DNA of 29,293 bases from a virus: IMG/VR virus record IMGVR_UViG_3300029787_000231, positions 1 to 29,293 of that record, one strand, 5' to 3'. The notes beneath the pieces are model-generated. The model was not told the origin of the DNA. It worked only from the letters and a program-made list of their open reading frames with translations, and did no database searches. A program made the translations under genes and the position numbers. How positions within the stretch are numbered: position 1 is the stretch's first letter; each line of letters starts with the position of its first letter. Shown piece by piece: positions 8,951-28,900 of the stretch.

Positions 8951-11493
8951 GTTCTTTAACAAGTTATTCAATACCAAATTTAGCTCAGGGTATTAGCCAG
9001 CAACCTGATGCCCAACGTGATCCTTCGCAAGCTGAGATCCAAATTAATGGAATGTCATCCATCGTTGAAGGTTTAAGAAAAAGAGATTGCAGCGAAACAA
9101 TAGGTTTAGTTTCTAGTAGTAGTTTTGGTGATTGTTTTATTCATAGTATTTTAAGAGATAAAGTAGAAGAATATTTAGCTGTAATAACTTCTTCAACTAT
9201 CCAAGTTTATGATTTAGATGGTGCATCAAAGACAGTTACACCAGCAACAAACGCTTATCAATATTTAAGTACGATTACAGATGCAAAAACACAATTACGA
9301 GCAGTAACGATTGCTGACTATACATTCATAACAAATACTCTTACAAAACCAGAAATGGAAAGCTCTACAGCTCCTGTTGTTGCAAGACCTAAAGCACATG
9401 AAGCATTGGTATGGGTACGAGCTGCTACTTATGGTCAGACATATAAAGTTAGTATTCAACGTGCGGGAGATTCAACTGCAACTGAAGTCTCAGTAACAAC
9501 CGCTGTTGCTCCTGTTGTTGCTAGTGGAAGTACAGTTACAGAAAATAGAATTAGTTCTGAAGATATTGCACAAAATTTAATTGCTGGTTTTTCTGCTTTT
9601 TCAGATGTTACTTTTACAAGAAGTGGTGCTGTTATTCATATCGAATCAGATAATGCTTTTAGTGTTTCCGTATCTGATGCAAGATCAAATGCTGATATAA
9701 CTGCAATATTTAATAAAGTTCAAGCTTTTACTGAATTACCAACAATAGCTCCTAATAATTATCAAGTAACTATAGAGGGTGATCCAACCAATAGTTTTGA
9801 TGATTTTCATGTGTCTTTTGTTCCTAAAAGTGGAAATTTTGGAGAAGGTACTTGGAGTGAAACTGTTAAACCTGGAGATAAATATAAAATTGATAAAAGT
9901 AAAATGCCGCATTTATTAGTGGCTTTGCCTGATAATACTTTTCATTTTGGCCCAGCAGACGGAACTACTAAATCAGGTACTTATAACGGCCAAGCTTGGG
10001 AAGTAAAGATTCCTAGCTGGGGAGAACGTATTGCAGGGGATACAGATACTGCTCCTGATCCTAGTTTTATTGGTAATCCTATAAATGATATTTTTATCTA
10101 CAAAAACAGACTTGGGTTTTTAGCTGATGAAAATGTAATTTTATCTAGAGTAAGAGCATTATTTAGTTTTTTTCCAGAAACAGTAACTACTGTTTTAGAT
10201 AGTGACCCAATAGATGTTGTTGCAAGTAACAACAGAGTAAGTATTTTAAAATATGCAATTCCTTACCAGGATGAATTGATTTTATTTAGTTCACAATATC
10301 AATTTAGATTTAATGCAGCAGAAACAATATTAACGCCAGCAACAGCACAAATTACAGTTTTAACGCAGTTTGAAATAGATACAAACGTAAGGCCACAGCT
10401 TGCAGGTGGTGGAATTATCTTTTGCCAGGCTAATGGTGATTTTTCACAATTTAGAGAATTTAGTGTAAGGGGTGCTGGTACTGCTTTAACTGCTGATGCT
10501 CAAGATTTAACAGGATATGTTTCAGCTTATGTTCCTAGTAGCGTTTTTAAAATAACTGTTAATGATACAAGTAATGCTTTATTTGCCTTAAGTAATAAAA
10601 CAGGGTTTAAGGATAGAATTTATATTTATAAATATTTTTTAAGAAATTCAGGTGGTGGCGTAGAAAGGGCACAGTCAAGTTGGAGTCATTGGTCTTTTAG
10701 TGGAGCAGATGAAATATTGCAAGTGCTTTGTATTAGAGAAACTTTATTTTGTTTAATGAGGTATGGCACAAAAGTATTTTTAGAAAAAATACCAGTACAA
10801 GATAGAAGCCCAGAACCGCCCTCTGGCAGCCCTTATCCGTTGTTGTTAGATAGAAGAGTTTCTACAACAACTGATACACCCTCTGCTATGAGGGTAGCTT
10901 CTGGAAATTATAGCCCTACCGCTAATACAACCACCTGGACTTTACCTTTTGCTGCTGCTGCTACAACACAAGCCTGGTCAGGATTCCATACGACATCAAA
11001 TGGAGGTGTTTTATTATCTATTATTACTTCAGGTAATACTGTCATTGCTTCAGGAGATTGGCGAAATGTACCAATCTTTTTTGGTGAAAGATATGAATTT
11101 AGATATAGATTTACCAAATTTAAACTATATAAAGAGATAGGTGGAGGTAAAGCTGCTGCAAACGTAGAGAGAACACAAGTAAGACATGCAAAACTTAGAT
11201 ACCATGAAACTGCATATTTTGATATACAAGTAACTGCTGAAAGAAGAAATACTTCTATTTATAAATTCGATGGAACAGTTCTTGGAAGTAGGTTGTCAAA
11301 AATAGGTACAGCTCTACCTAATGGATATGACCCTGACGATGACAGATATAAAGAAGGCGTATTTACTATTCCAATAATGTCCAGGGGAGAAAGATGTGTT
11401 GTTGAAATAAAGAATGACACACCACACCCATGTAAGTTTTCTACTTGTGAGTGGGTTGCATTGATAACAGGTAAAGCGAGGTCATTGCGATGA
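8947..11493 (+). CDS. Tail tubular protein B (T7 gp12-like nozzle)
   Basis: An 848-residue protein (T7 gp12: about 794) forming the hexameric tail nozzle through which DNA leaves. Landmarks are the N-terminal IPNLAQGISQQPDAQRDPSQAE (~residues 9-30), GLRKRDCSE, the middle FIYKNRLGFLADENVILSR (~377-395), and the C-terminal HETAYFDIQVTAERR with PIMSRGERCVVEIKNDTPHPCKFSTCEWV. The protein is mostly beta-rich. The start overlaps gp11, and the stop overlaps the next gene by four bases, so the order and coupling are those of T7. Confidence 0.95.
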   Translation: MSSLTSYSIPNLAQGISQQPDAQRDPSQAEIQINGMSSIVEGLRKRDCSETIGLVSSSSFGDCFIHSILRDKVEEYLAVITSSTIQVYDLDGASKTVTPATNAYQYLSTITDAKTQLRAVTIADYTFITNTLTKPEMESSTAPVVARPKAHEALVWVRAATYGQTYKVSIQRAGDSTATEVSVTTAVAPVVASGSTVTENRISSEDIAQNLIAGFSAFSDVTFTRSGAVIHIESDNAFSVSVSDARSNADITAIFNKVQAFTELPTIAPNNYQVTIEGDPTNSFDDFHVSFVPKSGNFGEGTWSETVKPGDKYKIDKSKMPHLLVALPDNTFHFGPADGTTKSGTYNGQAWEVKIPSWGERIAGDTDTAPDPSFIGNPINDIFIYKNRLGFLADENVILSRVRALFSFFPETVTTVLDSDPIDVVASNNRVSILKYAIPYQDELILFSSQYQFRFNAAETILTPATAQITVLTQFEIDTNVRPQLAGGGIIFCQANGDFSQFREFSVRGAGTALTADAQDLTGYVSAYVPSSVFKITVNDTSNALFALSNKTGFKDRIYIYKYFLRNSGGGVERAQSSWSHWSFSGADEILQVLCIRETLFCLMRYGTKVFLEKIPVQDRSPEPPSGSPYPLLLDRRVSTTTDTPSAMRVASGNYSPTANTTTWTLPFAAAATTQAWSGFHTTSNGGVLLSIITSGNTVIASGDWRNVPIFFGERYEFRYRFTKFKLYKEIGGGKAAANVERTQVRHAKLRYHETAYFDIQVTAERRNTSIYKFDGTVLGSRLSKIGTALPNGYDPDDDRYKEGVFTIPIMSRGERCVVEIKNDTPHPCKFSTCEWVALITGKARSLR

Positions 11494-11936
11494 AATTTGT
11501 AAAACCTACACAAGAAATGGCTATTGATATTGGCTTAGGAATGAGAGAAGAGGATGAAGTTGAAATTCGTCTTAGTCATAATGTAGATCCAGTATCAGCA
11601 ATGTTAGAAAGTTTTATAAACTCAGACATTTGCGATGCTTTACAGGGTGATGACGGAACTCCTGTTGGTATGTGTGGAGTTGCAAAGCAATCAATATGGC
11701 TATTAGGTACAGATAATTTAACAGTAAATAAAAGTCATAAAAAATTTCTATGTATAGAGGGGAAAGAATGGGTTGATAATTGTTTAAAAGAAGTTGGTAA
11801 ACCATTAGGTAATTGGGTTTATGCAGAAAATAAAAAGTCAATTAAATGGTTAAAATATCTCGGCTTTACAGTAAATGACCCAAGACCATATGGGCATAAC
11901 AGAGCCTTGTTCTGTCAATTTTGGAGGTTTAACTAA
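11490..11936 (+). CDS. gp13-like protein with GNAT acetyltransferase fold
   Basis: A 148-residue protein (T7 gp13: 138) in the gene-13 position. Its C-terminal half shows the GNAT-like pattern NWVYAENKKSIKWLKYLGF (~residues 107-125), comparable with NYVWVGNTSHIRFLKTIGA in T7 gp13. The N-terminus MKFVKPTQEMAIDIGLGM resembles the start of T7 gp13. In T7 it is needed for virion morphogenesis, although it is missing or scarce in mature particles. Acetyl transfer has not been shown for T7 gp13 to my knowledge. A good GAGG site precedes the ATG. The stop overlaps the next ATG by one base. Confidence 0.85.
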   Translation: MKFVKPTQEMAIDIGLGMREEDEVEIRLSHNVDPVSAMLESFINSDICDALQGDDGTPVGMCGVAKQSIWLLGTDNLTVNKSHKKFLCIEGKEWVDNCLKEVGKPLGNWVYAENKKSIKWLKYLGFTVNDPRPYGHNRALFCQFWRFN

Positions 11937-12718
11937 TGGGGCCAGCCGCAGCTTTTGGTGTCGTTTCTGGAGGTCTTAACTTTTTAAGTGGGATAGCCAA
12001 TTACCAGGCACAAAGACAAGATTATGTTAATAAATTAGCTTACAAGAAAGCATCTGATCAATTTGCTACTTGGTCTGCAAGACAGCAAGCATCACAGGCA
12101 GATATAAATAATCAATATAAATTTTGGGGTGAAAAAATAAATTATGGTCAAAATCTTGCATATACTAATTCCTTAAGAAATTACGAGCTAAGTAAAGCAA
12201 TAGTTAGTGCAGAAGAAGTTGCTAGAGCCAGGTCATCTGCTGGTGCAGATTATTTAAGTACAAGTCAAGCTTTTGCTGAAGGATTTCAACAAGAAGCAAT
12301 GTCTGATGCTGTTGCATTGTTTCAATTTAAAGTCCAGGCTTTAAAAGCAAGAAGTTCTATAGCAGCAGGTAATACCGCTGGGCCATCTGTAGATCGTTTA
12401 ATGAATGATTATGCGAGACAAGTTGGAGATTTTACAACTTTAAAACGTATTAATGACGGATTTAAAGAGAGTCAGTACACAAGGCAACAAGCTGGTGCTG
12501 TATCTCAATACTTAAATCAATACAATAGTCAGCAATTTTATCAACAGCAAGAATATCTTGATCCAATTCCTCCATTTGCTCCGTTACCTACTTTGATTGG
12601 CCCCGCTGGGCCGTCAATGGTTGGTGGTGGGCCTAGTGCTGGAGCTGGATTGCTTGGTGCTGTTGCTGGTGGTGTATCTACTGGCGTATCTACTTATGGA
12701 GCATTATCAGGAATCTAA
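11936..12718 (+). CDS. Internal virion protein B (T7 gp14-like)
   Basis: A 260-residue protein (T7 gp14: 196). In T7 it is ejected first and forms the pore in the outer membrane. It shows a hydrophobic N-terminus with AAAFGVVSGGLNFLSGIANYQ, a long Q/A-rich helix (~residues 25-190) and a Gly/Ala-rich hydrophobic end (~220-258), longer than the T7 protein. These ends suit membrane insertion. GGAGG lies ahead of the ATG; the stop TAATG overlaps the next start. The role is assigned from position and shape, since this family varies quickly. Confidence 0.85.
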   Translation: MGPAAAFGVVSGGLNFLSGIANYQAQRQDYVNKLAYKKASDQFATWSARQQASQADINNQYKFWGEKINYGQNLAYTNSLRNYELSKAIVSAEEVARARSSAGADYLSTSQAFAEGFQQEAMSDAVALFQFKVQALKARSSIAAGNTAGPSVDRLMNDYARQVGDFTTLKRINDGFKESQYTRQQAGAVSQYLNQYNSQQFYQQQEYLDPIPPFAPLPTLIGPAGPSMVGGGPSAGAGLLGAVAGGVSTGVSTYGALSGI

Positions 12719-14964
12719 TGGCTAAAGAATTACCAAAAAATCAATTAAGACCTACTGCTAAACCTGTAAATACATTTTTGTCTTATAGGTCAGAACAACC
12801 TCTTGCACCTGCAAAGTTAGTAGAAATGCCAACACCAAAAGGCATAAATATAATTCAACGATCTAACGAAATGAATGTTCAGGGCTATAACAGCTTTAAA
12901 CAATTATCTGATACTTTAGCAAAAACAAGTCAAGCAGTAAGTCAAGTAGGGCCAGTAATTAAAAGTAATCAAGAACAAAGAGGTAGAAATGATGTTATTA
13001 AATCTTTAGCTCTTGCTAACAGGCAGGCAATTAATAATGCAGAAAATTATGCCATTACTAATAGGCAGGTATCTAGGGAAGATGCAATTGCTGGCATGAT
13101 GATGGATGAAGTTAATCCCTGGAGGCAAAAAGGTAGAGAAGATCAATTAAGTAAATTAGCTGCTGGTGAAGCTGGTATATATTTCGATAGAGCTTTTAAT
13201 ACATATGCTTCAGAAATAATATCTTTAGATCCGCTAAATCCAAGACTAGATCAAATTAAAGCAGAAGCGGTTACACAGCTAGCACAAGATTGGGGCGTTG
13301 ATGAAACAAGTGCAAGTTTTATTGATTACACAACACCTGCTATAAACAAAGAGTGGCAAGGTTTTAATGAAAAACATTTAAAAGGTTATACAAAATTTCA
13401 AAAAGAATTTCAAAAAACTTTAACAAAAGGTCAGTTATATCAAGCTTTAGTTAATTGGAAACAAGATGAACTTACAGAAAATGATTTAGTAGCACAATTA
13501 GGGGTCATATTAAATGATCAAGTAAAGCAATTAGGTTTACCATTAGAGCCAACTGAATTTAAGAAAGAAGTACTTTTAGCATTAAGAGGACAATTAGAAG
13601 TAGAAGCTAACGATATAAATGGAAAGCATAGTCAAAGAGCTGCAAGTTTCTTGGGAATGTTAGATAGTGTGCCTGTTCATATTATTACTGACAAAAAAGG
13701 TAGGCCAAAAGAATTAATTTCTGCTGGTGAAATGTTTGGCGTAGATTTTTTACTTGAACAGAACAAAATTGGTAATGCTGCTCATCAAATAAACAAAAGA
13801 AAGGAAGAAAAAGCAGAAGGTGATTTTGTTTTGAAATGGGCTGAAACTATAGTTCCATTAGAAAAAGGAAGCGATGAGTACAACGCTGCTGTAAGTGAAT
13901 TATTTGCGGATGAAAATTTACCTTACGATAAAAAAATAACATTATTTGCTGATATAGATGAGATGGATGAAGCCAGGGCAAAAACAACTTTTAACACTGC
14001 ACCTGTAGAAGAAATATTTTCATTAAATCAAAGTAGGCATGGAGTTAAATTTGACGAAGTTGCAGTTAGGAAAGAGCTTACAGAAGCATTAGCTGGCGTA
14101 CCTCCAGAACTTGCAGAATATAAGTCACAAAAATGGAAAGAATTTGCAACTATGGCAAGGCAAAAAAGAGCTGAAGCTAGTGGTGCTTATGAAACAACCA
14201 TAATTAATAACAGAGTAAAAGAATCCACAAAACTACAAGTAGAGACTTATTACAAAGATACAGGAGATTTATATATGGATGGAAAGGTTGATACAAGCAA
14301 AATTAATTTAAACTCTTACATAAGCAATTTAAAAGCTAACAGGCAAGGAGGAGCTATAACTTATAGCCAAGCGTTAGAAGATAAAGTATATGCAGATTTA
14401 ACTAGCGAAATAAACGAAAGAGGTAGTTTAGATCCAGCAGAGCAAACGAAAATAATTGTTAATAGTATTACTGAATTTAACAAAGACAAAGAAGCTATAA
14501 AAAATATGTTTCCTTTGCCAGAAAAACAAATAAAAAAAGAAGATAAAGCAGTAGATGCACCTCCTACTTATAGGTTGTCTAGCTTAGATGTAGTACCTGA
14601 TTCCAGGATAGAAAAAAGAGACTATAAAGAGTTTCCAATAATGTCTGCAAATGATACGCAAAAAGTATTAAAGCTTGCATTGGATGGAGGAAAGATACCT
14701 ATGCCAATGCGATCACTTGCAATTAAATACAATATCTCGCCATATCAGCTACTTGTTGATACTTTAGAGCATTATAAAGATGAGGAGTTCTACCCTAGTG
14801 AAGAAGACAAAAATTTTCTACTACAGAAGGGTAACAAGCTTATGGGTCTTAAAGATTCAGTAAAAGGTATGTCTCCTGGAGATGGTCAATTATCTGATGC
14901 AACAAATTACGTTGCTTATGTTTTGTCAGGAACAGCACCAAAACGTCTTATTTACAGAGGTTAA
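12718..14964 (+). CDS. Internal virion protein C (T7 gp15-like)
   Basis: A 748-residue protein, almost the length of T7 gp15 (747), lying in the gene-15 position. It is mostly helical, with stretches such as QLSDTLAKTSQAVSQVGPVI near residues 62-81 and a DEVNPWRQKGREDQLSKLAAG segment (~131-151). T7 gp15 makes part of the internal core and, together with gp16, a periplasmic conduit during ejection. I see no catalytic motif and in particular no lytic transglycosylase signature. It overlaps gp14 by one base, and the next gene begins three bases after its stop. Confidence 0.85.
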   Translation: MAKELPKNQLRPTAKPVNTFLSYRSEQPLAPAKLVEMPTPKGINIIQRSNEMNVQGYNSFKQLSDTLAKTSQAVSQVGPVIKSNQEQRGRNDVIKSLALANRQAINNAENYAITNRQVSREDAIAGMMMDEVNPWRQKGREDQLSKLAAGEAGIYFDRAFNTYASEIISLDPLNPRLDQIKAEAVTQLAQDWGVDETSASFIDYTTPAINKEWQGFNEKHLKGYTKFQKEFQKTLTKGQLYQALVNWKQDELTENDLVAQLGVILNDQVKQLGLPLEPTEFKKEVLLALRGQLEVEANDINGKHSQRAASFLGMLDSVPVHIITDKKGRPKELISAGEMFGVDFLLEQNKIGNAAHQINKRKEEKAEGDFVLKWAETIVPLEKGSDEYNAAVSELFADENLPYDKKITLFADIDEMDEARAKTTFNTAPVEEIFSLNQSRHGVKFDEVAVRKELTEALAGVPPELAEYKSQKWKEFATMARQKRAEASGAYETTIINNRVKESTKLQVETYYKDTGDLYMDGKVDTSKINLNSYISNLKANRQGGAITYSQALEDKVYADLTSEINERGSLDPAEQTKIIVNSITEFNKDKEAIKNMFPLPEKQIKKEDKAVDAPPTYRLSSLDVVPDSRIEKRDYKEFPIMSANDTQKVLKLALDGGKIPMPMRSLAIKYNISPYQLLVDTLEHYKDEEFYPSEEDKNFLLQKGNKLMGLKDSVKGMSPGDGQLSDATNYVAYVLSGTAPKRLIYRG

Positions 14965-14967
14965 ATC

Positions 14968-17900
14968 ATGGAATTAAATCAAGAACAGCAAGATAAAGAG
15001 TTAATTACACCTCCTGTAGAAGAAGAAGAAACTCTTGTAGCAGAGAAAGAAAAAGAAGAAGAAAAGCCAAATTACCCCTGGTGGGATTTTACCCAGGGCA
15101 AAGCTGCTACGGCTTACCAAGCTTATGGTGATTATATAAACAAAGTATCTGAAGGTAATGTAACTGGCGGTGATAGAGGTAAATTATTTGGATCTTTAAT
15201 GCACCTGGGCTTTGACATGGCATTGCCTACGCATTTAGATAATACGGCAGCATTAGGAACTGTAAAAGCTATCGGTAACGCTACGAAAGCTGTTACAGAT
15301 ATGAGAAAAGGTGATTATACAGATTATGAAATAGGTAGAGGTTCAGATGAACTTGTAGATGAAGCATATAAAATTGGCGGTTTTAAACCACCCTCAGAAA
15401 TGACGGCTGGTGAAAAAAGAGGCGATGATATGCGGTCTGCATTAATGTTAAATATTTATTTAGCATTAGCTATGAAAGGTGTTGGAAATTTAGTTGCTCC
15501 AGCAATTCCAGGATTACCAAGCATGATGCAAGCTTTAGATCCTACAAAAGCTGGATCTTTTATGGGTGCATTAGGCAGGCTCGGAATCATAAACGCTATT
15601 GATGAAATACCAAGTACTTTTTTAGATGACAATAGAGGCAATTTTGGTACAAAACCAGGTATGAGCATGACAGAAGCATCGCAAGGTGCTTTTCCTTATA
15701 ACTTATCTATTTCAAGTGCTTTTGCAGGTTTATTAAATGCCAAACAATTATCTTCAATAGATTTTAAAAAAGTAAGAGAAGCATTTCCAGAAATAAAAAG
15801 AGCAAAGGAAACAAATAGTTTAACTAATCCAAGAAGGATGAATCGTAGTCAGCAAAAAGAAGACGGCATAATTACAGAAGATGCTGGCGGTAAAATTGCT
15901 TTTACTAAAGCTGTAGATCCAGACGGAACAAACGCACAAAAGGTAACACCACAAACACCAGAATCAGACGCTGTTGCTGAAACTTTAAATAATTTTGATG
16001 ATTCACAAATAGAAATAGTTGAGCAAGCTGATAAAAATATTCCTGAACTTATAGAAGAGGTATCTAAAAGAGTTGGTGACGGTGATCAGCAATTATTAAA
16101 ATACAGCGATGTATCTGCACCTACAAATAGTCTTGCAATAGCTGATATTAATACTCGTATAAATAAAGTACCAACTGATAATTTATTATCTCTTGCTAAC
16201 CCTAAAAATGGTACAGAATTATCAGATGTCATTACTGAAACTACTGGCAAAGATTTTGAGCAGTTTACAAGAACTGATGTAGTAAATGGTATTAAAAAGC
16301 TAGAAACTGAGGGTAAAACATTAATGCCTAATAGATTAATGGGCATGCCATATTTAAATGTAGATCAAATTAAATTAGATCCAGTTAGGTTTCAATATAA
16401 AGGCGGTGTAGATGCTCAAGGGGTGCAAAAAGGACAATCATTAGAAGGAGTAGAAAAATGGAATAATGATTTAGAAGGAGTAGTCCAGGTATGGGAAGAT
16501 TCGGACGAAGTAATTTATGTTGTTAATGGACATAACAGGTTACAAAAAGCGAAAGAACTTGGCATACCATCAGTAAAAGTTGAATTTTTAGATGCTCCAG
16601 ATGCTATTTCTGCGAGGCAGCAAGGTGCATTAACTAATATTGCTCAAGGTGGTGGTACGCCATTTGATGCTGCCAACTTTTTAAAAGAATCAGGTATATC
16701 AAGTCCAGAACAACTAACAGATATAGGTGTTCCATTAAAATCTGGTTTAGGAGCAAAAGGTTTAGCTTTAAGTAAATTACCTCCTAATATTTACCAAGAT
16801 GTATTAGACGGCAAAATATCACAAAACAGAGGACTATTACTTGGTGGTAGTGGTCTTGATGAAACTGGCATGCAAACTGCATATAAGGTTTTACAAAAGA
16901 AAGACGTTACTGACGCAACTTTTTCCGAAGTATTGCAACAAGCTAAAAATGCACCTACAGCAGAAGGTGGTCAGGTTGATTTGTTTGGTAATACAGAGAT
17001 GTTAAATCTAATGATTGAAAAGGGTCAATTAGCTGCATCAATAAAAAGAAATTTAGTCCAGGATCGTAATTTATTTAGTAGAGCTGGTAGAGGTGCAGAT
17101 AGATTAGAAGCTGCTGGTAGTAAGATTGATAGATTCGAAGCTGCAAATCAAAAGAATTTTGCTGATACTGCTATAGCTCAATTTGATGCAGAGAAATATG
17201 CAGACACAAATATTAGTAAATTACTTAACGAAGGAGCACAACAGATAAGTGAAGGAGCAAAAGTTGGTGTAGTTACAAGAAGAATACAGCCAAAGATCGT
17301 AAACGAAATAATAGATAATCCAGCTTTACCAACTAAGACACCTGAGATACAAACTGAGCTACCAACATCTACAGAATTGCCTGATAGAAGAGTAATGATT
17401 AACAATATTATTAAAAAAGCAGCACAAAATGGCGAAGTTAGACCTCCAACTACACCATTAATAGATACACCAAAGGCAGAAAATATAAATCTTACAAAAG
17501 TTATAAAAAATGTTAGAGATGGTAAACCAGATGGCGATGTAATACGCTTAGTGGCTGATGAACTAAGGCTTGCTGATGAACATAAGACGTTAGATGATGC
17601 CATAAATGCAGATCGTATTGCACAAAAAAGAGCTGAAATGGGTTGGGATAATATGACTTACGAGCAGAAAAAACAAAGAGACTTTTTTAAAGAAATGGAA
17701 ATGGGTAGTCGTAAGTTTGAATACGATATGATTACAGATCCGATTAATAAATTAAGAAAACAAGTTCCTACTTTGTCTGTAGATCAGCTAAAAGCTAAAA
17801 AGCTAGAGTTAGAACAAGGCGGGTTTCCTTTAACAGAAAGAGTTAAAAATAATATTGCAAGAAAACGTACACAATTCCCATATATTGCAACCAAGAAAAA

Positions 17901-19494
17901 AGCTTTAAAAATGAGAATGGATTTAGTATCGGATGCAAATATTGAAAAGTTATATAAAGATGGTGAAAAAATAGGTGATGAATTATTTGAAATTGAACTA
18001 AAAAAGATTACTGACTTAGAAGACGCTGCATCTGGCTCTTTAGATACAAGATTAGTTAGTCAGGCAGAATATGAATTAGTAGTAAACGAGCTAAACAAGA
18101 AAGCAGCAAAATCAACAGGATTTACATTACCTAACGAATTTGCAAGAATGAAACCTCGTTATGGTCTTGGTGAAATCGAATTTGAATCTGATTTAGATAG
18201 AGTTGCTTATATTATTAGAAGTAAAGCTAAAAAGTCTGCAAGAGAAGATGACATAGTTGCTTTACTTAAACAACAAAATGTAGATCCAAACGCAGCTAGG
18301 ATGCATGGTTCTAAAGTTCATCAATTTGTTAAAGATTATGTAAGAGAAGAAACTGGCAGTGCTGCTGCTAATAATGCTGCTGGCATGTTAATAAAAGTAC
18401 CTGACCAGGGTTTTGGTACTGCTCCGAAAATGAGTTTTGCTTCTGATATAGATTTTACTGACGGAGCTTATGACGAAGATATGATTCGTAGGTTACTAGA
18501 GACAGCAAAACAACGATTACAAATTAATTATTCAGATCGTTTAGCAGATTGGGGAAGACGTATAACTGGCAATGTTGAAGAAATATTTGAACAAAGTCAA
18601 TCATTAGCTTTTGAAGCTAGTAAAGCAATGAAAGAAGCATCAATAATTGCTGGTATAGATCCAAACAGGGTCAGATATTTAGAAGCAATAAACATGAACA
18701 GGTTATTTGGTAGGGATGAAAATGTATTGTCCACTGCTAATTGGCGGCCAGATTTAGCAACATTTATGGCTCGTAATCCTGATGATCCATTAAGTGCATT
18801 GGCGGAGGGTCAACCAACAGGGGTTTATGTTCCTCGTGGTTCAAAACACGCTTCTCGCAATTCAATATTTTTGGCTCTGTATCCAGGTATAGAGAAGCGT
18901 TACGGAGGACTGCTTTCAAACGTAGCAGAAGGTGGTAGAGCTTTTCGGATAGACGCATATCACGAGGCATTTCATTCAGTCCAGGAATGGTTGGAAGAAA
19001 TAGGTAATCCTAAATTAGCTGGAGCATTAGAAACTCCTGAAGCAATTAAAGAGATGTCATCCATTATTAAACGATCTAGAGGTAATTTTCAAGCTGGAAT
19101 GTCAAATCAAGAAATACAAGCCGAAGCTTTTGGTCATTGGTTAAACAATAAAAAGATCAAATTAGAAAATGGAGGTTTAAAAGGTGTATTTGAAAGAATG
19201 AAAAAATATCTTTATGAATTTGGTAAAAAATTAAGATTTATTCTTGGTAAAGATCCAACATATGTTGATGTATTTGAAATGGCGGCAAGTGGAGAAATAT
19301 CAAGAAAAGCCTTAATAAATAAATTAACTCCAGAACAATTAGAAGGTTTAATTACAAGAATGGATGCTGACACTAATCGGAGCATCCCTGAACTTACTAA
19401 TCGTATTAATGAATATTTAATCAGTAAAAAGATTGAATATGACAACATGCTTGGTGGTTGGAATGAAAACGTAGCTAGAGGAGGATGTCTCTAA
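14968..19494 (+). CDS. Giant internal/ejection protein with ParB-like and zincin domains (gp16 position)
   Basis: A 1508-residue protein in the gene-16 position, with a good GAGG ahead of the ATG. A charged N-terminus is followed by a hydrophobic stretch (~155-190) and then a ParB/sulfiredoxin-type domain (~455-580). Its core VVNGHNRLQKAKELGI is at 518-533 and a downstream helical part with LPPNIYQDVLDGKIS and DLFGN resembles the DdrB-like ParB domains of phage polyvalent proteins. The long charged helical middle leads to a C-terminal metallopeptidase-like domain: HEAFH at 1332-1336 and a possible third ligand in AEAFGHW (E1386). T7 gp16 is about 1318 residues and carries an N-terminal lytic transglycosylase, which I do not see here. 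Probably ejected into the cell, where the two enzyme-like domains could act on host targets. Confidence 0.8.
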   Translation: MELNQEQQDKELITPPVEEEETLVAEKEKEEEKPNYPWWDFTQGKAATAYQAYGDYINKVSEGNVTGGDRGKLFGSLMHLGFDMALPTHLDNTAALGTVKAIGNATKAVTDMRKGDYTDYEIGRGSDELVDEAYKIGGFKPPSEMTAGEKRGDDMRSALMLNIYLALAMKGVGNLVAPAIPGLPSMMQALDPTKAGSFMGALGRLGIINAIDEIPSTFLDDNRGNFGTKPGMSMTEASQGAFPYNLSISSAFAGLLNAKQLSSIDFKKVREAFPEIKRAKETNSLTNPRRMNRSQQKEDGIITEDAGGKIAFTKAVDPDGTNAQKVTPQTPESDAVAETLNNFDDSQIEIVEQADKNIPELIEEVSKRVGDGDQQLLKYSDVSAPTNSLAIADINTRINKVPTDNLLSLANPKNGTELSDVITETTGKDFEQFTRTDVVNGIKKLETEGKTLMPNRLMGMPYLNVDQIKLDPVRFQYKGGVDAQGVQKGQSLEGVEKWNNDLEGVVQVWEDSDEVIYVVNGHNRLQKAKELGIPSVKVEFLDAPDAISARQQGALTNIAQGGGTPFDAANFLKESGISSPEQLTDIGVPLKSGLGAKGLALSKLPPNIYQDVLDGKISQNRGLLLGGSGLDETGMQTAYKVLQKKDVTDATFSEVLQQAKNAPTAEGGQVDLFGNTEMLNLMIEKGQLAASIKRNLVQDRNLFSRAGRGADRLEAAGSKIDRFEAANQKNFADTAIAQFDAEKYADTNISKLLNEGAQQISEGAKVGVVTRRIQPKIVNEIIDNPALPTKTPEIQTELPTSTELPDRRVMINNIIKKAAQNGEVRPPTTPLIDTPKAENINLTKVIKNVRDGKPDGDVIRLVADELRLADEHKTLDDAINADRIAQKRAEMGWDNMTYEQKKQRDFFKEMEMGSRKFEYDMITDPINKLRKQVPTLSVDQLKAKKLELEQGGFPLTERVKNNIARKRTQFPYIATKKKALKMRMDLVSDANIEKLYKDGEKIGDELFEIELKKITDLEDAASGSLDTRLVSQAEYELVVNELNKKAAKSTGFTLPNEFARMKPRYGLGEIEFESDLDRVAYIIRSKAKKSAREDDIVALLKQQNVDPNAARMHGSKVHQFVKDYVREETGSAAANNAAGMLIKVPDQGFGTAPKMSFASDIDFTDGAYDEDMIRRLLETAKQRLQINYSDRLADWGRRITGNVEEIFEQSQSLAFEASKAMKEASIIAGIDPNRVRYLEAINMNRLFGRDENVLSTANWRPDLATFMARNPDDPLSALAEGQPTGVYVPRGSKHASRNSIFLALYPGIEKRYGGLLSNVAEGGRAFRIDAYHEAFHSVQEWLEEIGNPKLAGALETPEAIKEMSSIIKRSRGNFQAGMSNQEIQAEAFGHWLNNKKIKLENGGLKGVFERMKKYLYEFGKKLRFILGKDPTYVDVFEMAASGEISRKALINKLTPEQLEGLITRMDADTNRSIPELTNRINEYLISKKIEYDNMLGGWNENVARGGCL
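16330..16710 (+). other. ParB/DdrB-like domain within the 1508-residue ejection protein
   Basis: Residues ~455-580 of the gene at 14968. It opens with MPYLNVDQIKLDP, the usual lead strand of ParB-type domains, and contains VVNGHNRLQKAKELGI (NGHNR at 520-524), matching the D/N-G-x-x-R box. It continues with SARQQGALTNIAQGGGTPFDAANF. ParB-type folds bind or cut DNA, or hydrolyse CTP; which of these, if any, applies here is unknown. Confidence 0.7.
18700..19260 (+). other. Zincin-like metallopeptidase domain within the 1508-residue ejection protein
   Basis: Residues ~1245-1430 of the gene at 14968. HEAFH (1332-1336) gives the two histidines and the catalytic glutamate of a zincin. AEAFGHW about 50 residues later gives a candidate third ligand, as in gluzincins. 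The DNA over the first part of this domain is much richer in G+C than what follows: 50% in 18781-18840 against 23% in 19141-19200 by direct count. Confidence 0.65.
19477..19484 (+). promoter_or_regulatory. Ribosome binding site that decides the start at 19494
   Basis: AGAGGAGG is the strongest Shine-Dalgarno match in this part. It abuts the ATG at 19485 with no spacer, which is too close for initiation, but lies nine bases before the ATG at 19494. That ATG overlaps the stop of the preceding gene in a TAATG, the arrangement used elsewhere in this genome. Confidence 0.75.
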
Positions 19495-22400
19495 TGTCTA
19501 AATGTGATGATTTATTTGAACAACGTCAATCATTAATCAGAAAAAAAGCTGAAATTGACCAACAAATTGCAAAGATGAAGACTATACAGATGTCTAATCA
19601 AATGCCAAGCGATGAAACATTTCGTGACGCATTTGATAAAACAGCTCAATATTTAGAAGATTTAGAAGCACAAAGATTTATTAAAGAATCAATAGAAGCA
19701 GAAAAGAAACCAGGCGTAAGTATCCCTAGAAATCAACCTACTAATTTTGTAAAAGAATTAAGAGACAGGCCAGAGGAAGTGGTTGCTAATTGGGCTAATT
19801 ATTCTCAGGCTTTGCTTAGAAGTAGTAAAGAAACATTAGATGGAAGGTTTGCATTTCTTGATGTTGACCCTTTAAAAAGTGCTCAAATGTTATCTGATGC
19901 TTATGACGGCAAACTTAATGTTAATGAAGCATTGGATGCAATAAATAAATTAACAGAAGGAGAAAAAACTTTTGTAGAAGATTTAGTTAGAGCTAGATGG
20001 TTTCATGACACAGGTAAAGAAGCATATATAAAAGCTGTTGACGATATAGATATATTTATGGAGAAAAATCCTAATGCAGAAGTACCTCCAGAATTATTAG
20101 CTAAAACATTTAACACATACAAAGTAGCTTTAATGAGTGAAGCTACATACGATTTTTATAGAAACCAATGGTCAAAAGCTGGTAAAGCACAACAAGGTAG
20201 GTTGTTTACAGATCAATTAGAAGTAGTAGATGACGCTTCTTCTGTAATACCTGACGATATTAAATCTGCTGAATCTTATGTTGATTCTTTAGGTATTCTT
20301 GGGAAAAAAATTGGTGACACTACAGAAGAAGAATCTATTGCCAGAGTAATTACTGCTGCTTCTGAAAATATAACAAGACCAAAAGAAGCAATGGATCAGT
20401 TAAACCTGGAGTTAAACAATATAAGAATCCAGGGAACAGACGTAAGAAAAAGGTATGACCCTAAAAGATTAAAAGATGCCAGGTTTAGACATACAAATTT
20501 ATTAGCAAAAGATTCTCAATTATTTAATTTAAGAACTATGGGTCTTGCTTTTAGTTCTAACGTAGCTATGGCAATACGAGGGCCATATCATACTTTATAT
20601 AAAAATGCTTTATACAAACCTTACGGCACTAAATTAACTGACAGTTTTATGGATTCCTGGCAAGCAAACTGGAAAGGTTATGCCGCTGCATATAAGGCCG
20701 TAAGGGAATCAGGTAAGGAATTATTTATGGACGCCTGGAAGGGCGACAGAATGTTTTATTCCAGTAATGTAGAAACTTATGGAAAATTTTATGAACCAGT
20801 AGAGAAAAGAATTGCAGATGCAGAAAATGCAATGAATGTAGAAGGTAACTGGTTGAGTTATATAAATCCAGAAAAATATAGAAGAGAATTTCATGCGGCT
20901 ACACGTTTATGGCTATTTAGAAAAACAAAACATCCAGCGGCACTTAGACCAGGCTTTTCAGCACTAGCAGCTTTAGACGCTCCATTTGGTTATGGTTATC
21001 ATGTCTATAAACTAAGAACTGATCTTGAATTTAAAGCTAGAAGAGATGGAGTGCAGCTTGGATTGTTTGATGAAGAGTCCATAAATAAATATATAAATGA
21101 TCAGTTTGCAGAGCAGTTTTATAAGTTAGAACCAAGCGAAGCACAGATAAAAGCATATAGACAAGACCAAAACATTCCACCTGGAATAATGGATGATCGA
21201 GCTGTTGCTGATGAAATAATAAAAACTAGAGTTGCTAATACATATGGCGGGCCTGTTAATTTAGATGACCTTAGTAGAGGTGCATCTGAATTTTCACAAG
21301 ACATGAGATTTCAGAGTCCTCCAGGTGAAGGTAATTTAGGTAAAAAGTTTTATGAGGTTGTAAATAATGCTAGACAAAAATCTCCATTAATTGACATAAC
21401 TGTTGCACCATATCTTGTTGCACCAATGAAAGGCATTTCGTTAGACATGAAAAGTCTTGGGTTTTCGTCTGTGCAAGATTGGATAGGTCACGCTACTGGT
21501 GCTAGAAAATTAAATCCAAAACAAATAGCTAGTGCAAAAGCCGATGCAATTTTAGCTATGCACGTTTGGAGTATTGCTCTTATTGCAAAAGCAAATGATC
21601 AGATAATAGGTAACGGGCCAACCAACCCACAGGAGAGAGCAGCATGGCGTACAGAATTAAGAGCACAAGGCAAAAAACCTAACAGTATGTTTGGTGTTCC
21701 TTTAATTGGCGGTCTGCCAATTATCAATACTATGTTTCTTATAAGTGACATAATAGATGGCGGTCAAAAGGCTGTAAGAAGTGACTACGACAAGAAAACA
21801 ATAGGTGGTGCAATTTTAGATACGTTAGTCGGTAATATAAGAAGAAATACAGCACTAGGCACTATTTCACAAATAATGGAACTTGCTTATGGTGATCAAT
21901 ATGGCAAAAGAAGGCCAATGGATTTATTCGGTTATATGGGCGGTAGTCAAGTACCAGGTATAGGAATTATAAGAAGTACAGAAAGAGCAACAAATTCGAA
22001 AAAATCTAATTTATTTAGAGATGCAGAGCCAACAAAAAAAGATGAAGAACTTTACGATATTAATGTTTTGCAAAATGCAGAAAGAATATTAAAAAATGCT
22101 GCTACTGGCGTAACTGGTATTACTGGCGTAGCTGGCGGTGCATATAAAGATAAAGATTGGTTAGGGTCTGACATTAAAATGCCATTTGGTATGGAACTTG
22201 TTCATTATTTAGAGCATAGATTTTTCCCTCACTTGCATCCCAATGACAAGGTATATGCAGAATTGCAAATGCTAGAGCTACTAGATCCTCCTAATCCATT
22301 ACTTAGAAAAAGATTAATGGATGTACCTATGTCTGATGATTTACAAAAAGAATTTAACGATACTTATGGATCTATTGCTCCAGGAGTAAGTGATGTTCCA

Positions 22401-22913
22401 AATTTAGGGCCAGTAGCAAGAGCAGAATTAGGAGGTTCTAATAAATCTATAAGAGTAAGTTTGCCAGTATTTGTAAATTTAAAAGATTTAGGAATTAGAT
22501 TAAAAGAACAAAAAGAATTAGTAGATATAAAAATAAATCCATTAATTGAAAAGCATGTGTTTGACGAAAAAGGTAAAGGCAGAACATTTATAGATGCTGC
22601 CAGGTCATTAATAAATGATCCTATATATGACAATATGCAATCAGATCCAACAACTTCTGCTGATTTAAATGTTTCAGACAAAACTAATCAAGATAGAAAA
22701 AGGATGCCTGCATATTTGATGATGTCTCAATTAAAAAAATATTATGAATTGATTACAACTGATGCTATTGGTAGAAGCGATTCGCCTGCTGCAACTGAAT
22801 GGCAAGAACGTAATGATATTAAAGAAATTGAATTAAGAGATCAAGCATTGCAAGAAGCAAAGTCAACAGTTAATAATTTATCTCGTCAAAACCCTGTCAT
22901 TAATTTAGAATAA
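19494..22913 (+). CDS. Second giant internal/ejection protein (gp16-like second half)
   Basis: A 1139-residue protein between the gp16-position gene and the fibre gene; T7 has only one gene there. It begins MSKCDDLFEQRQSLIRKKAEI, likely a coiled coil. The middle is helical. Near residues 683-755 two hydrophobic stretches (ADAILAMHVWSIALIAKA and PLIGGLPIINTMFLISDII) flank a conserved-looking block, NGPTNPQERAAW then GKKPNSM. Blocks of this kind (G-x-G-P-x-D/N-P-x-E-R-x-x-W) occur, by my recollection, near the C-terminal part of T7 gp16-like and other large podoviral ejection proteins. It is therefore proposed that gp16 functions are divided between this protein and the one before, with this one supplying the membrane-spanning conduit. 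No catalytic motif recognised. Confidence 0.75.
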   Translation: MSKCDDLFEQRQSLIRKKAEIDQQIAKMKTIQMSNQMPSDETFRDAFDKTAQYLEDLEAQRFIKESIEAEKKPGVSIPRNQPTNFVKELRDRPEEVVANWANYSQALLRSSKETLDGRFAFLDVDPLKSAQMLSDAYDGKLNVNEALDAINKLTEGEKTFVEDLVRARWFHDTGKEAYIKAVDDIDIFMEKNPNAEVPPELLAKTFNTYKVALMSEATYDFYRNQWSKAGKAQQGRLFTDQLEVVDDASSVIPDDIKSAESYVDSLGILGKKIGDTTEEESIARVITAASENITRPKEAMDQLNLELNNIRIQGTDVRKRYDPKRLKDARFRHTNLLAKDSQLFNLRTMGLAFSSNVAMAIRGPYHTLYKNALYKPYGTKLTDSFMDSWQANWKGYAAAYKAVRESGKELFMDAWKGDRMFYSSNVETYGKFYEPVEKRIADAENAMNVEGNWLSYINPEKYRREFHAATRLWLFRKTKHPAALRPGFSALAALDAPFGYGYHVYKLRTDLEFKARRDGVQLGLFDEESINKYINDQFAEQFYKLEPSEAQIKAYRQDQNIPPGIMDDRAVADEIIKTRVANTYGGPVNLDDLSRGASEFSQDMRFQSPPGEGNLGKKFYEVVNNARQKSPLIDITVAPYLVAPMKGISLDMKSLGFSSVQDWIGHATGARKLNPKQIASAKADAILAMHVWSIALIAKANDQIIGNGPTNPQERAAWRTELRAQGKKPNSMFGVPLIGGLPIINTMFLISDIIDGGQKAVRSDYDKKTIGGAILDTLVGNIRRNTALGTISQIMELAYGDQYGKRRPMDLFGYMGGSQVPGIGIIRSTERATNSKKSNLFRDAEPTKKDEELYDINVLQNAERILKNAATGVTGITGVAGGAYKDKDWLGSDIKMPFGMELVHYLEHRFFPHLHPNDKVYAELQMLELLDPPNPLLRKRLMDVPMSDDLQKEFNDTYGSIAPGVSDVPNLGPVARAELGGSNKSIRVSLPVFVNLKDLGIRLKEQKELVDIKINPLIEKHVFDEKGKGRTFIDAARSLINDPIYDNMQSDPTTSADLNVSDKTNQDRKRMPAYLMMSQLKKYYELITTDAIGRSDSPAATEWQERNDIKEIELRDQALQEAKSTVNNLSRQNPVINLE

Positions 22914-22947: not shown

Positions 22948-25900
22948 ATGCCATTATCATATAAAACTATTACAGGTAATAGTGGTAGTCCACAGAGTAC
23001 CTTTACGCTGGATTTTCCTTATATTCTTAAAGATCATATAAAGCTATATTATGGACGCAATATATTAAATAACACTCAAACATCTACATTATTAAATGGT
23101 ACTGACTATAACTTCACTAACGATAATACAATTCAATTAATTGGTTCTACTCTTAACTCAGGAACAACTACTGGAAATCCACATAATTTAGCTAATGGTG
23201 TTGCCTTAACTATTGAAAGAGATACTCCTGATAGTACCCAAATTGTTGAGTTTCAAGATGGATCTAACTTAATTGGAGATAACCTTAATAATGCAAACTT
23301 ACAGAATTTATTTGTAGTCCAGGAGCAGCAAGATAAGAATGATTTATCTGCTACTAAAGCACAAGCTGCTGAAACTGCATCAACTACAGCTACTTCTAAT
23401 GTCGCAACTTTAACAGCTACACAGTTTAAAGCTGATGGTTCAACATTAATGACAGGCAATATAAATGCCAATAGTAATAAAGTTATAAATGTTTCTGATC
23501 CAACCAATGCTCAAGATGCAGTAACGAAAAATTATCTTGAAAGAACTGGAAGTATTACTTCAACACAAATAGCAAACGGAACTATTGTTGATGACGATAT
23601 AAATGCCAGTGCAAATATAGACGGATCTAAAATTGCTAACGATTCCATATCTATGGATAAGTTAAGTTCTGGAGATTTGCCTGCTGATGTAAAAGTTGGT
23701 ACTGGCAGCATAATTGATGGAACTATTTTAGATGGCGATATAAATTCATTAACAGCTATTCAGGGATCAAAATTACAAGCTGCTACTGGCACTAATGCTG
23801 GTTCAATGTCAGCCGCTGATAAGGCAAAATTAGATGGGATAGAAGCTGGAGCTAAAGATGACTTAAATCCTGGAGAGGTTAGACAAAAGGTACAAGACGC
23901 ATCTGACTCTAATGTTTTTACTGATGATGACCATACAAAATTAAATAACGCAGTAACTTTAACTGACAACCAAACTTTAACTAACAAGACTTTGACAAGT
24001 CCTGTCATTAACCAAATGTCAGGTACTGCTATTAAGACTTCTGGTACATCTACAAGTGATTTAGAAGTTTATTCTGCTAAACGAGCTGGTGAAATATTTT
24101 ATCAAAAAGATACTTTATCAGAAATAATTTCTACTGAGACCTGGAGTGCTAGTGATGACAAGGTAGCTACTACTGCTGCAATAGATGCCAGGATAACTGA
24201 CCTAGTAGATGATGTTGGTGGGTTTGTCGCTATTGATAATGAAACATCTTTTCCAACTGCAAACCCTGATGTAAATAATGATGCTGGTACTATTGTGTCA
24301 GTTAAAGCGGCATCAACAAACTTAGTTCCAAACGGAACAACAGTTACTATCACAAATGGTAGAGGAAGTGGATTAGCAGTTATTATTACTGGAGTATCTA
24401 CAACTATCCCTTCTGGTTTTGGTTTTTTAGTAGAGACAACAACCACAGCTCATACATATACATTTCATAGGCTTACACCAAAGGCAACAGAGGTAACAAC
24501 AGTTGCAAGCAAATCTACTGAAATAAGTACAGTTCACACCAATATAAATAATATTAATTCTGTCTTTAATAATTTAACTGCTATAAATGCAGTTAATAGT
24601 AATTCAACAAATATCAATGCAGTTAATAGTAATTCAACAAATATCAATGCAGTTTCTACAAACGAAACAAATATCAATGCAGTTAAAAATAACGAGACAA
24701 ATATCAATGCAGTAGTTAGTAATGCAAGTAATATTAATGATGTAGCTAGTAACGAGACAAATATAAACGCTGTTAAAAATAACGAGACAAATATAAACGC
24801 TGTTAATAGTAATTCTACAAATATTAATACTGTTGCTTCTTCAGATACTAATATTAGCCAGGTAGCGACAAATATAAATAATGTAAGTAATGTTGCTAAT
24901 GCAATTACCGCTATAAATACTCTTAATAGTTCAATTAATAATGTAAATAGTGTTTTTAATAGCTTAACTAACGTAAATAATGTTGGAAATTCAATAACAA
25001 ACGTCAACGAAGTTGCTAATAATTTAGGAACTGTTAATGCTTTTGGTGAAAGATATCGTACTGGTGGAACTAACCCTACAACCAGTTTAACTACAGGAGA
25101 TTTATTTTTTAATACAACTTCTGATGAACTTAAGGTATATAACGGAAGTGCTTGGCAAAATGGTGTTACAGCGACAGGTAATATAGCCAGTTTAGGAGCT
25201 AACGTCTTTACTGCTGACCAAGAGATTCATGGTTTAAATTTTGGTAGAGGTGGTTATAACACTGGTAATAGTAGTAATGTCGGTATTGGTTATCAAACAT
25301 ATGGCTACAATAGCTCAAACACTACAAGCGGATATTCTAATGTAACTATTGGTGCTTATGCTTGGCAAGATGCCACTACTGGACATGATTCTGTTGTCAT
25401 AGGAAACAAGGCATTTCAAAGTGCAACTTCAAGTCGTTATAGCGTAGTTATAGGTTCAGAAGCTTACAAAGATATGACTACACAAGGAGGTAACTCTGTT
25501 GTTATTGGATATTACGCTGGAAGAAATAATAATGGTAATGGTGGACATAACGTACTTGTAGGTAGTCATGCTGGTGAAAATTGCCTGAATCCTAATATAG
25601 TTGCTGTTGGTAGTAGTGCTTTAAGATATAACACTACTGGTGGTGCTAACCAGGCCTTTGGTCGTGGAGCTTTAAGTCAGGTAACTACAGGTAGTTCCAA
25701 TGCAAGTGTTGGACAGAGTGGAAGCAACATAGTAACTGGTAGTAGTAACACTATTATGGGTCAGTATGCTATGACCTATAACGCTGGTCATACTTTTGCT
25801 AATGGTAGTGCTGTAACTAATGGTGGTAGTGCAAGTAATAACGTTGCGATTGGTCGTGAAGCTTTAGCAATGCATTGTGCGCAATCCGGCAATGTTGCTG

Positions 25901-28900
25901 TAGGTTATCAAGCTGGAAAGGAATTAAGAGATGGTCAACAAAACATATTTGTTGGAAATCAGGCTGGTCTAAATACAGTTTCATGTACCCATAACGTTGC
26001 TGTAGGTTCGCTTGCTTTTGCAAATGGTGCTGATACTGCAACTGAAAACGTAATTTTAGGTGTAAATTCTGGACGACATATTTCTGGGGATTACAATACA
26101 GCACTTTCATCCAGATCAATGAGTCAAGCAAGATCTGGAAGTCACAACATTGCTGCTGGTTATCTAACTTTAAATGGTACAGGTGGTGTTACAGCAACAG
26201 GATCTTATAACTTTGGAGGTGGATACAGAAGTCTTTACCTAAATACTTCGGGTGGTTTTAATATTGGTATAGGTTATGATTCTCTCTATAGCCTCACTGA
26301 AGCAAATGATTGCATAGCGATAGGTAGAAATACACTTAAGGCAACGACAACTGTAAGTAACAGTATTGCAATTGGTAAGGGTGCATTACAGAATAATACT
26401 GCTTCTTTAAATACTGCTGTCGGTAATCAAGCAATGACGGACAATACTACAGGTTATTACTGTGCTGCATTTGGATATAACGCATTACAAAATAATACTT
26501 CGGGTGGTCAAAACGTAGCCGTAGGTTTAGAAGCACTGAATTTTAATACCACAGGCTCAAACAATACCTCGGTTGGAACACAATCTTTAGAACATAATAC
26601 AGATAAAAGTGGTCACACTGCCGTTGGTAATGGTTCTCTTAGAGAAAACAGGACAGGAGAAAATTCAACAGCCGTAGGAATGCTAGCACTAAAGCAACAT
26701 CAAGCAGCTAGTAACTGTACTGCTGTTGGTTTCTATGCAATGCAATCAGTAACTGCTGGTTTACATACTGCTGTAGGTTCAAGAGCTTTGGTTAACGGAG
26801 GTGGAAATCATAACATCGCAGTAGGTTATTATACAGCGGCTAACGTTACAGGTAGTTATAACACTGCAATTGGAGATTATGCCTTAGATGCTGCTAGTAA
26901 CACAGCAAATTACAACGTAGCTCTTGGCTATGAATCATTAACTACAGCTACAAGTGGAGGCTATAACATAGCATTAGGTGGTCTTGCTTTAAAATTAAAT
27001 ACCACAGGGAGTTCAAACGTAGGTGTTGGTTATGGTGCTTTAGCGGCAAACGTTGGTGGTACCGAAAATACTGCTGTTGGTAATATTGCAATGGATGCTA
27101 ATACTTCTGGTACTAGATCAGTTGCTATAGGAACAAGTGCTTTAGGATCAAACACAACAGCCAGTTACAACACAGGTGTTGGTTATGGTGCGTTAGGACT
27201 TAACACTACGGGAGCATCAAACACAGCCTTAGGAACTGGTGCATGCTCAGTTTTAAATGGAGGTGCCGGTAACGTAGCAGTAGGTGTGTCTGCTATGCAA
27301 AATAGTACTACAGCTGGAAATTCTGTAGCCATTGGTAAAGAAGCTTTATACAACACGCTTGACGCAAGTTACAATATAGCGATTGGTTATAGATCATCTT
27401 TTGCAGGTGATCAAGAAACAAACAATGTTGCTGTTGGCCCATTTGCTTTATTAAATAACACTACTAATTCTTTAGTAGCTATAGGTTATGGAGCCTTACA
27501 AAATAATACAAGTGGAATTAAAAATACTGCTGTAGGGTATCAAGCCTTAGAAGAAAACGTTGATGGACAGAACAACACTGCTTTAGGCTATCAAGCATTA
27601 GACTCAAACACATCAGGAAGTAACAACACTGGTATTGGTTCTACAGCATTGCAAGCTGTCAGCTCAGGTACTAACAACACTGCTGTAGGTCAAATAGCTG
27701 GTTATGGAATTACAACGGGTGCTAACAACACAATAATAGGTTCCAGGAGTGGTGTAACTCTTGCTGGAGGATCTAGAAATGTAGGTGTAGGAAATGAAAA
27801 TTTCTTATCTGGAACAGGTAGTGATAATGTAGCTATAGGTTCAACTTCACAAAGAAATAATAGTACTGGTAACCAGAACGTAACTGTTGGAACGGAAGCT
27901 GGTAATAACATAACGTCTGGATCTTATAACGTAGCAATAGGATATCAATCAGGAAAATCTCTTAACGCAGCAATACATAACACTGCTGTCGGGTATAAAG
28001 CTATGGGATCTTCTACCAGTGGAAATCAAAACACAGCATTAGGTTATCAGGCTTTAAAATCAAACACTGGCAGTAGTAATGTTGCTGTTGGTTATAACGC
28101 ATCAGTATTAAATGTTGATGGAGTAGACAACGTAGCATTGGGTGGTATAGCGTTACAAAACAATGTATCGGGAGCTGGCAACGTAGCAGTTGGTAAAAAA
28201 GCTTTATTTGATGCAATTGGAAATTATAACATTGGTATTGGTTATGAAGCAGCAACTAACGTAAGTAATAATAACGATAATATTGCAATAGGTCGTGAAG
28301 CATTACACACCAAAACAACAAGCAACCCATCAATAGCTATAGGTTATCAAGCATCATACGCACAAACTACTGGTGCATATTCAGTTGCCATTGGTTATAC
28401 AGCTGCAAGGAATGTACAAACTGCTGGTACTTATGTTGCTATTGGTTATCAAAGTCAGAAACATAGCACTGGTCATAACAACATTACTGTTGGTGGTCAT
28501 GTTATGGAAGCCAGTGCTTCTTCTGGAAGTTACAACACTGCTATGGGTATGCAAGCCTTAGCAAGTCATGGATCTGGTAGTAATAACTCAGCATTTGGTC
28601 ATAAAGCTGGTTTTGATTTAACAAATGGTTCAAGTAATGCTTTGTTTGGACAAAGTGCTGGGTTGTATCTTACAACTGGAAGTTATAACACTGCCTTAGG
28701 TCAATCATCATTGTCATATGCAAATACTAATAGTAACTGCACAGCAGTAGGTAATAGTACTGCTCATTACGTTACTGGAAATAACAACACAGCAGTAGGA
28801 CATGATGCAATGCATGCTGCAACAACTTGCATAGATAATACGGCAGTGGGTGTAAACGCTTTAAAAAGTTCAACATCTAACCCATTAACTGGTAATTACA

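Follow-up and report, generated by a model that had tools for sequence, protein, structure and literature searches.

Predicted zincin-type peptidase as an optional cassette beside a ParB-superfamily domain in a gp16-position protein of a marine T7-like phage

The usual view of the internal virion proteins of T7-like phages is that of a conduit for the DNA together with one cell-wall enzyme. In T7, gp16 has a lytic transglycosylase at its N-terminus and a channel/DNA-clamp region at its C-terminus. The locus described here raises the question of what a protein in the gp16 position may contribute when it carries domains of other kinds. The locus lies in a 29,293-base IMG/VR contig (the window, i.e., the whole stretch of DNA that was analysed), which may be a fragment. 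The original prediction had placed the open reading frame in question (the focal ORF) at 14968–19494; this location is correct, and the frame encodes 1508 residues. The window contains a late block of the T7 type, in which a terminase large subunit, a head-tail adaptor, a major head protein, and two tail proteins are followed, in this order, by gp13-like and gp14-like proteins, a 748-aa gp15-position protein, the focal ORF, a protein of about 1140 aa, and a fibre-like ORF. The part of the block that is relevant here is as follows:

11490–11936, + strand: gp13-like internal virion protein (phrog_308, E = 2.9e-25)
11936–12718, + strand: gp14-like internal virion protein (PF24072, E = 8.5e-5, a weak match under the Pfam cut-off)
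12718–14964, + strand: gp15-position protein of 748 aa, which stops short of the region where some relatives have a C-terminal SLT domain
14968–19494, + strand: focal ORF, an open frame of 1508 aa; encodes the gp16-position protein that carries the ParB and zincin modules
19485–22913, + strand: next gene, up to 1142 aa, gp16-C-like ejection protein (family profile against P-SSP7 gp16; conserved start MSKCDD at 19494)

Like gp16 of T7 and P-SSP7, the focal gene comes after the genes in the gp13, gp14, and gp15 positions and before the tail fibre. The fibre-like ORF (22948–29292) is very long, leaves the contig at its end, and contains many short repeats of the VAIGYQAL...NTTGSNNTAVG type.

The original prediction had regarded the focal chain as a possible part of the ejection channel. 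The gp16 gene position agrees with this, but the recognisable gp16 homology is found in the next gene, the family profile of which matches the C-terminal part of P-SSP7 gp16 (residues 874–1021; E = 4e-6 in a search of eight sequences). T7 gp16 was not shown by this profile, and a C-terminal channel/DNA-clamp region of the T7 gp16 type was not found in the focal ORF. The channel half is most likely the product of the next gene. In each of the 27 split-type contigs that are non-redundant at 80% identity and have both neighbours present, the focal-type gene is preceded by a gp15-like gene and followed by a gp16-C-like one. This set was gathered with the scaffold block (see below) as the query and samples only phages that have the block, and the profile E-values for its module and neighbour calls refer to small sequence sets. 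In P-SCSP1g, a single 2563-aa protein (PSCSP1g_00025) stands in for the products of the two genes; its gene follows the gp15-like gene and precedes one that is annotated as hypothetical and occupies the fibre position by gene order. When the family of the next gene is compared, profile against profile, with the C-terminal part of the fused homologues, the similarity (hhalign probability 76%) suggests that this part of the P-SCSP1g protein may be homologous to the next gene of the window.

The focal ORF is accordingly read as one half, the N-terminal one, of a gp16-type ejection protein that is split in this marine T7-like phage. It differs from T7 gp16 in the absence of the N-terminal transglycosylase and the addition of ParB and zincin modules, and the gp16 function is apparently split over two genes. 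Among the closest known counterparts are the P-SCSP1 protein and BAQ94395 of Nohivirus S31C1, both of which have ParB and zincin with the same residues. S31C1 is split, as in the window, whereas in P-SCSP1 the chain is fused and has a long extension at its C-terminus, and the preceding gp15-like protein bears an SLT domain. The internal virion genes of P-SCSP1 were guessed by the authors from size and position only, and the present analysis supplies domain assignments for proteins of this cultured cyanophage that they left unannotated (PMC9860041).

Pfam and NCBIfam searches of the focal protein gave nothing useful. Its conserved scaffold consists of the N-terminal ~450 residues and a block at residues 1058–1134. 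Three features in the scaffold or at the end of the ORF are:

15439–15495, + strand: strongly hydrophobic 19-residue stretch, residues 158–176, the only one in the focal protein (Kyte-Doolittle scan, hydropathy only)
18139–18369, + strand: conserved scaffold block, residues 1058–1134 (KPRYG...SDLDR.AY), retained where ParB or zincin is missing
19479–19484, + strand: AGGAGG Shine-Dalgarno sequence of the next gene, situated in the last codons of the focal ORF, where it gives rise to the recurrent C-terminal GGC/EGC

The P-SCSP1g homologue has a comparable hydrophobic stretch at residues 157–175 (Kyte-Doolittle). The C-terminal GGC/EGC (19471–19494), which recurs in many relatives, was considered as a tag and rejected, because it reflects the AGGAGG sequence that serves as ribosome-binding site for the next gene, the start of which overlaps the stop codon of the focal ORF. 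The scaffold block is also present in gene 30 of P-SCSP2 (L097:7651–12441), in which both ParB and zincin are absent by profile.

The first of the two modules comprises:

16351–16692, + strand: ParB N-terminal (CTPase/Srx-type) domain, residues ~462–575 (phrog_21; model; Foldseek matches to ParB/Noc/KorB; PDB profile search)
16528–16539, + strand: GHNR motif, residues 521–524, aligned with GERR of ParB (conservation in 44 sequences)
16693–16962, + strand: ParB helix-turn-helix-type region, residues ~576–665 (LALSKLP...) (Foldseek; PDB profile search; PF17762 in L079)

Residues 466–761 match phrog_21 with an E-value of 3.7e-33; the PHROG name, 'portal protein', is not taken as a function, since only positions 1024–1326 of the long profile are matched. 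The AlphaFold2 model of residues 444–778, built with 44 sequences, has a pLDDT of 81.4, and the top 29 PDB structures that Foldseek matches to it are ParB, Noc, KorB, or Spo0J without exception (best E = 4.6e-5, probability 1.00). The seven best hits of a profile search of PDB sequences are six ParB/Noc proteins and Spo0J (E = 0.0097 to 0.12), with a collinear alignment that sets GHNR opposite GERR and runs on through the helix-turn-helix. In the relative L079 this latter region matches HTH_ParB (PF17762, E = 4.8e-4). The ParB domain of the original prediction is thus borne out by three lines of search, and the assignment of residues ~462–665 to the ParB superfamily is firm. The narrower label 'DdrB-type' is not supported at the sequence level, because the ddrB-ParB family PF18763 gives no hit with E ≤ 1 in any of 11 records (the window and ten related ones) and the ParB profile of the present family does not find P1 DdrB. 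A scaffold-block protein with a true ddrB-ParB (PF18763, E = 3e-16) in place of the window's ParB type does occur, at L143:5305–10065.

Among the 44 sequences, N520 is present in 43, G521 and H522 are invariant, and R524 is nearly so. As in the ParB/Noc CTPase clamps, the N-terminal domain and the helix-turn-helix are collinear and GHNR corresponds to GERR. With regard to the CTP motifs, GHNRLxxA is conserved, whereas ENxQR is changed to NIa(e/q)G in both the 44-sequence and the PDB profile alignments. Unlike ParB and Noc, moreover, the focal ParB is embedded in a protein of the virion block.

The second module lies behind the scaffold block:

18574–19287, + strand: zincin-type peptidase module, residues ~1203–1440 (alignment of 24 sequences; model)
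18961–18975, + strand: HEAFH, residues 1332–1336, two predicted zinc ligands and the general base (H, E, and H invariant in 24/24)
19111–19113, + strand: E1382, predicted third zinc ligand (E-x-x-A-x-A-F; E in 24/24)

The HEAFH motif is present where it had been predicted, and by chance alone a protein with the composition of the focal one would be expected to contain about 0.005 HExxH motifs. In the alignment of 24 sequences, the relatives in which are 15–86% identical to the window, H1332, E1333, H1336, Q1339, E1382, and A1385 are invariant. E1386, originally proposed as the third zinc ligand, is E in only 12 of the 24 and otherwise I, V, or R, and it was dropped in favour of E1382. Residues H1332, E1333, H1336, and E1382 are therefore predicted to form the site of a zincin-type metallopeptidase, the identity of the domain being given by the invariant motif.

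The model of the module has a pLDDT of 84.5 and a pTM of 0.85. Its elements are, in order, a helix, three strands (50–53, 100–103, and 114–118), a helix (141–160) with HEAFH, and a helix (195–215) with the Glu, and the polyvalent metallopeptidases have been described with the same order of strands, HEXXH helix, and Glu helix (PMC5512222). Foldseek searches of the PDB and BFVD gave no match to the model. Consequently, the zincin claim stands with respect to motif and invariant residues but not as a structurally matched fold; the putative zincin fold rests on the motif, the placement of the helices, and homology to the corresponding domain in L025. The latter is a 3121-aa protein with InPase, LPD5, LPD1, LPD3, ART-PolyVal, and LPD38 domains, and the zincin therefore provides a sequence link to accepted polyvalent proteins. 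The zincin profile does not match P1 DdrB or the N4 virion RNA polymerase.

Podophage core proteins diverge fast. Both modules might thus be structural or degenerate, non-catalytic spacers within a protein of the capsid core. However, the zincin residues do not vary even where identity to the window is as low as 15–40%, and GHNR and NI..G of the ParB are near-invariant in the 44 sequences. Spacers would not keep such motifs, and this explanation is very improbable.

It may be asked whether these modules stand in for the transglycosylase of T7 gp16, as the original prediction had it. The absence of a transglycosylase signature from the focal protein is confirmed, and domain-profile searches found no SLT or phage-lysozyme domain elsewhere in the 29.3-kb record either; the window's closest relatives are likewise without a recognised domain of these kinds. 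This would fit a zincin that opens the cell wall or periplasm at entry as a substitute for the missing enzyme. HExxH peptidases are not known as a usual class of cell-wall hydrolase, and the two activities show no complementarity. In P-SCSP1g, L046, and L072 the gp15-like protein carries a C-terminal SLT or SLT-like domain and the next gene has both ParB and zincin, L151 has an upstream SLT and no zincin, and in L137 neither PF01464 nor a zincin is found. A zincin 'instead of' a transglycosylase is hence rejected, because SLT on the gp15-like protein coexists with ParB and zincin, and a wall-opening role is the least probable of the explanations considered, with hardly any weight. Rather, the transglycosylase has moved or been lost independently of ParB and zincin, since it occurs on the gp15-like protein with or without a zincin, and the window's copy of that protein ends before it. 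The window may contain a divergent peptidoglycan hydrolase. In phage PhiM1, too, a lysozyme-like domain is reported to lie on the gp15 equivalent (PMC11440229). A separate arrangement is seen at L129:4366–9678, where a scaffold-block protein without the present ParB or zincin has an SLT and a different motif, HEFGH, in one chain.

The 27 split-type contigs comprise 20 with ParB and zincin, six with ParB only, and one with zincin only. The zincin is missing and the scaffold intact in L079, L134, L136, L137, L151, and L160, and those of the split type keep both flanking genes. L079, compared with L080 (about 60% identity), keeps the ParB and both flanks; its zincin segment is missing, and the search of the rest of its 39.9-kb record gave no zincin either. 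Conversely, L020 keeps the N-terminus, the scaffold block, and the zincin, but lacks the ParB region. The zincin lies before the scaffold block in L138–L140, but after it in the window.

The module is also exchanged. The DNA of L137, L138, and L135 is 90–93% identical before one site and 83–86% identical after it, and at this shared site L137 has an insert of 176 bp with no recognised domain, L138 one of 785 bp with the zincin motif TAYHEAWHRIQ, and L135 one of 878 bp with an ART-like LVHATVAESVSSIKQDGF...LGTGVYF (HAT...GTGVYF). The ART-like call in L135 is by motif alone, PDB and PARP searches having given no match. In a separate lineage, L047 (on the same contig as L115) keeps the scaffold and has a PARP-like domain where L046 has the zincin; this segment matches PF00644 with E = 4.1e-5, below the curated cut-off, and all of its 14 weak PDB hits are PARP10, PARP14, or PARP15. 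The evidence for exchange comes from metagenomic contigs, and each ART-like variant is represented by one contig. As judged from these sequences, the zincin is an optional cassette on a constant scaffold, because it is lost or exchanged among relatives while the scaffold stays.

The distribution bears on whether the zincin may be an autoprocessing protease, one that would cleave its own chain or the core proteins next to it, ahead of packaging or in the course of it, and so free the ParB module. Self-cleavage has been proposed for P1 DdrB, in which a ParB domain is likewise joined to a C-terminal metallopeptidase and which undergoes processing ahead of packaging (PMC5512222). In fused homologues, P-SCSP1g among them, the zincin follows the ParB module and precedes the long C-terminal part, so that a cut at this place would give roughly the separate products of the split type, and its retention beside ParB in 20 of the 27 split-type relatives also fits a maturation role. 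On the other hand, it is kept even in phages that encode the two halves separately, and it is absent from the six relatives named above and replaced by other domains in L047 and L135; such dispensability is not to be expected of a maturation protease. Autoprocessing, the strongest of the alternatives, is thus unlikely as the explanation, and a processing role in those phages that carry the zincin is possible.

Since the zincin is deleted, moved, or replaced while scaffold and neighbours remain constant, it is unlikely to be needed for building the channel or for virion maturation, and its dispensability favours a delivered effector over an autoprotease. It is reasonably probable that the focal protein is one half of the ejection machine, with ParB and zincin modules, the zincin being an effector delivered with the genome. 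Under this effector account, which draws for delivery on the gene position and on the published ejection proteins of T7 and N4, the focal protein would be packaged in the capsid core, exit ahead of the DNA, and join the ejectosome, and its enzyme modules would reach the cytoplasm. There the ParB module may act on entering or host DNA or on nucleotides, and the zincin may cleave host proteins at an early stage. The original prediction of an ejection protein that is also an early effector of the polyvalent type agrees with the gp16 position in the 27 contigs, the zincin shared with L025, and the gain, loss, and swapping of cassettes; transglycosylase replacement and membership in the ddrB-ParB Pfam family are the parts that did not hold.

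As in the polyvalent proteins (Iyer et al. 2017, PMC5512222), several effector-type domains occur in one chain (ParB and zincin in the focal protein), the gene lies among late structural genes, and the zincin is common to both through L025. Virion-borne polyvalent proteins have been published (PMC5512222). P1 DdrB resembles the focal protein in having a ParB-superfamily domain and a C-terminal HEXXH metallopeptidase. The focal gene differs from both in that it lies in a T7-like phage and takes the place of gp16, a position that belongs to the ejectosome, and from P1 DdrB in that its ParB is not matched by PF18763 and neither module profile finds P1 DdrB. The N4 virion RNA polymerase, an ejected giant virion protein, also has an HExxH domain (PMC12633501). 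The likeness is that of an HExxH domain in a large protein, N4's being ejected and the focal one known from sequence; N4, however, has an RNA polymerase in place of ParB, and its sequence is not matched by the zincin profile.

Literature searches found no published description of this ParB and zincin arrangement in the gp16 position. The chances are about even that the gp16 position in a broad T7-like group is a general cargo slot, with a conserved scaffold and exchangeable cassettes (zincin, ADP-ribosyltransferase-like, and ParB) that recombine between close relatives and would be pushed into the host before the genome. The gp16-position part of the injection machine has the look of a slot for exchangeable enzyme cargo, and if this is true, it would resemble the polymorphic toxins, in which a constant delivery part is combined with a variable effector. 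Close natural relatives whose main difference is the cassette (none, zincin, or ART-like) may point to host targets as the selective force. Optional and exchangeable enzymes on a gp16-position protein make it directly testable whether the ejectosome also delivers effectors. A further ART-like looking stretch, RKGTSNEAG...GQAVYF, for which Pfam and PARP searches gave no support, lies after the zincin in the fused P-SCSP1g protein (L012:16642–24330), at residues of about 1560–1800.
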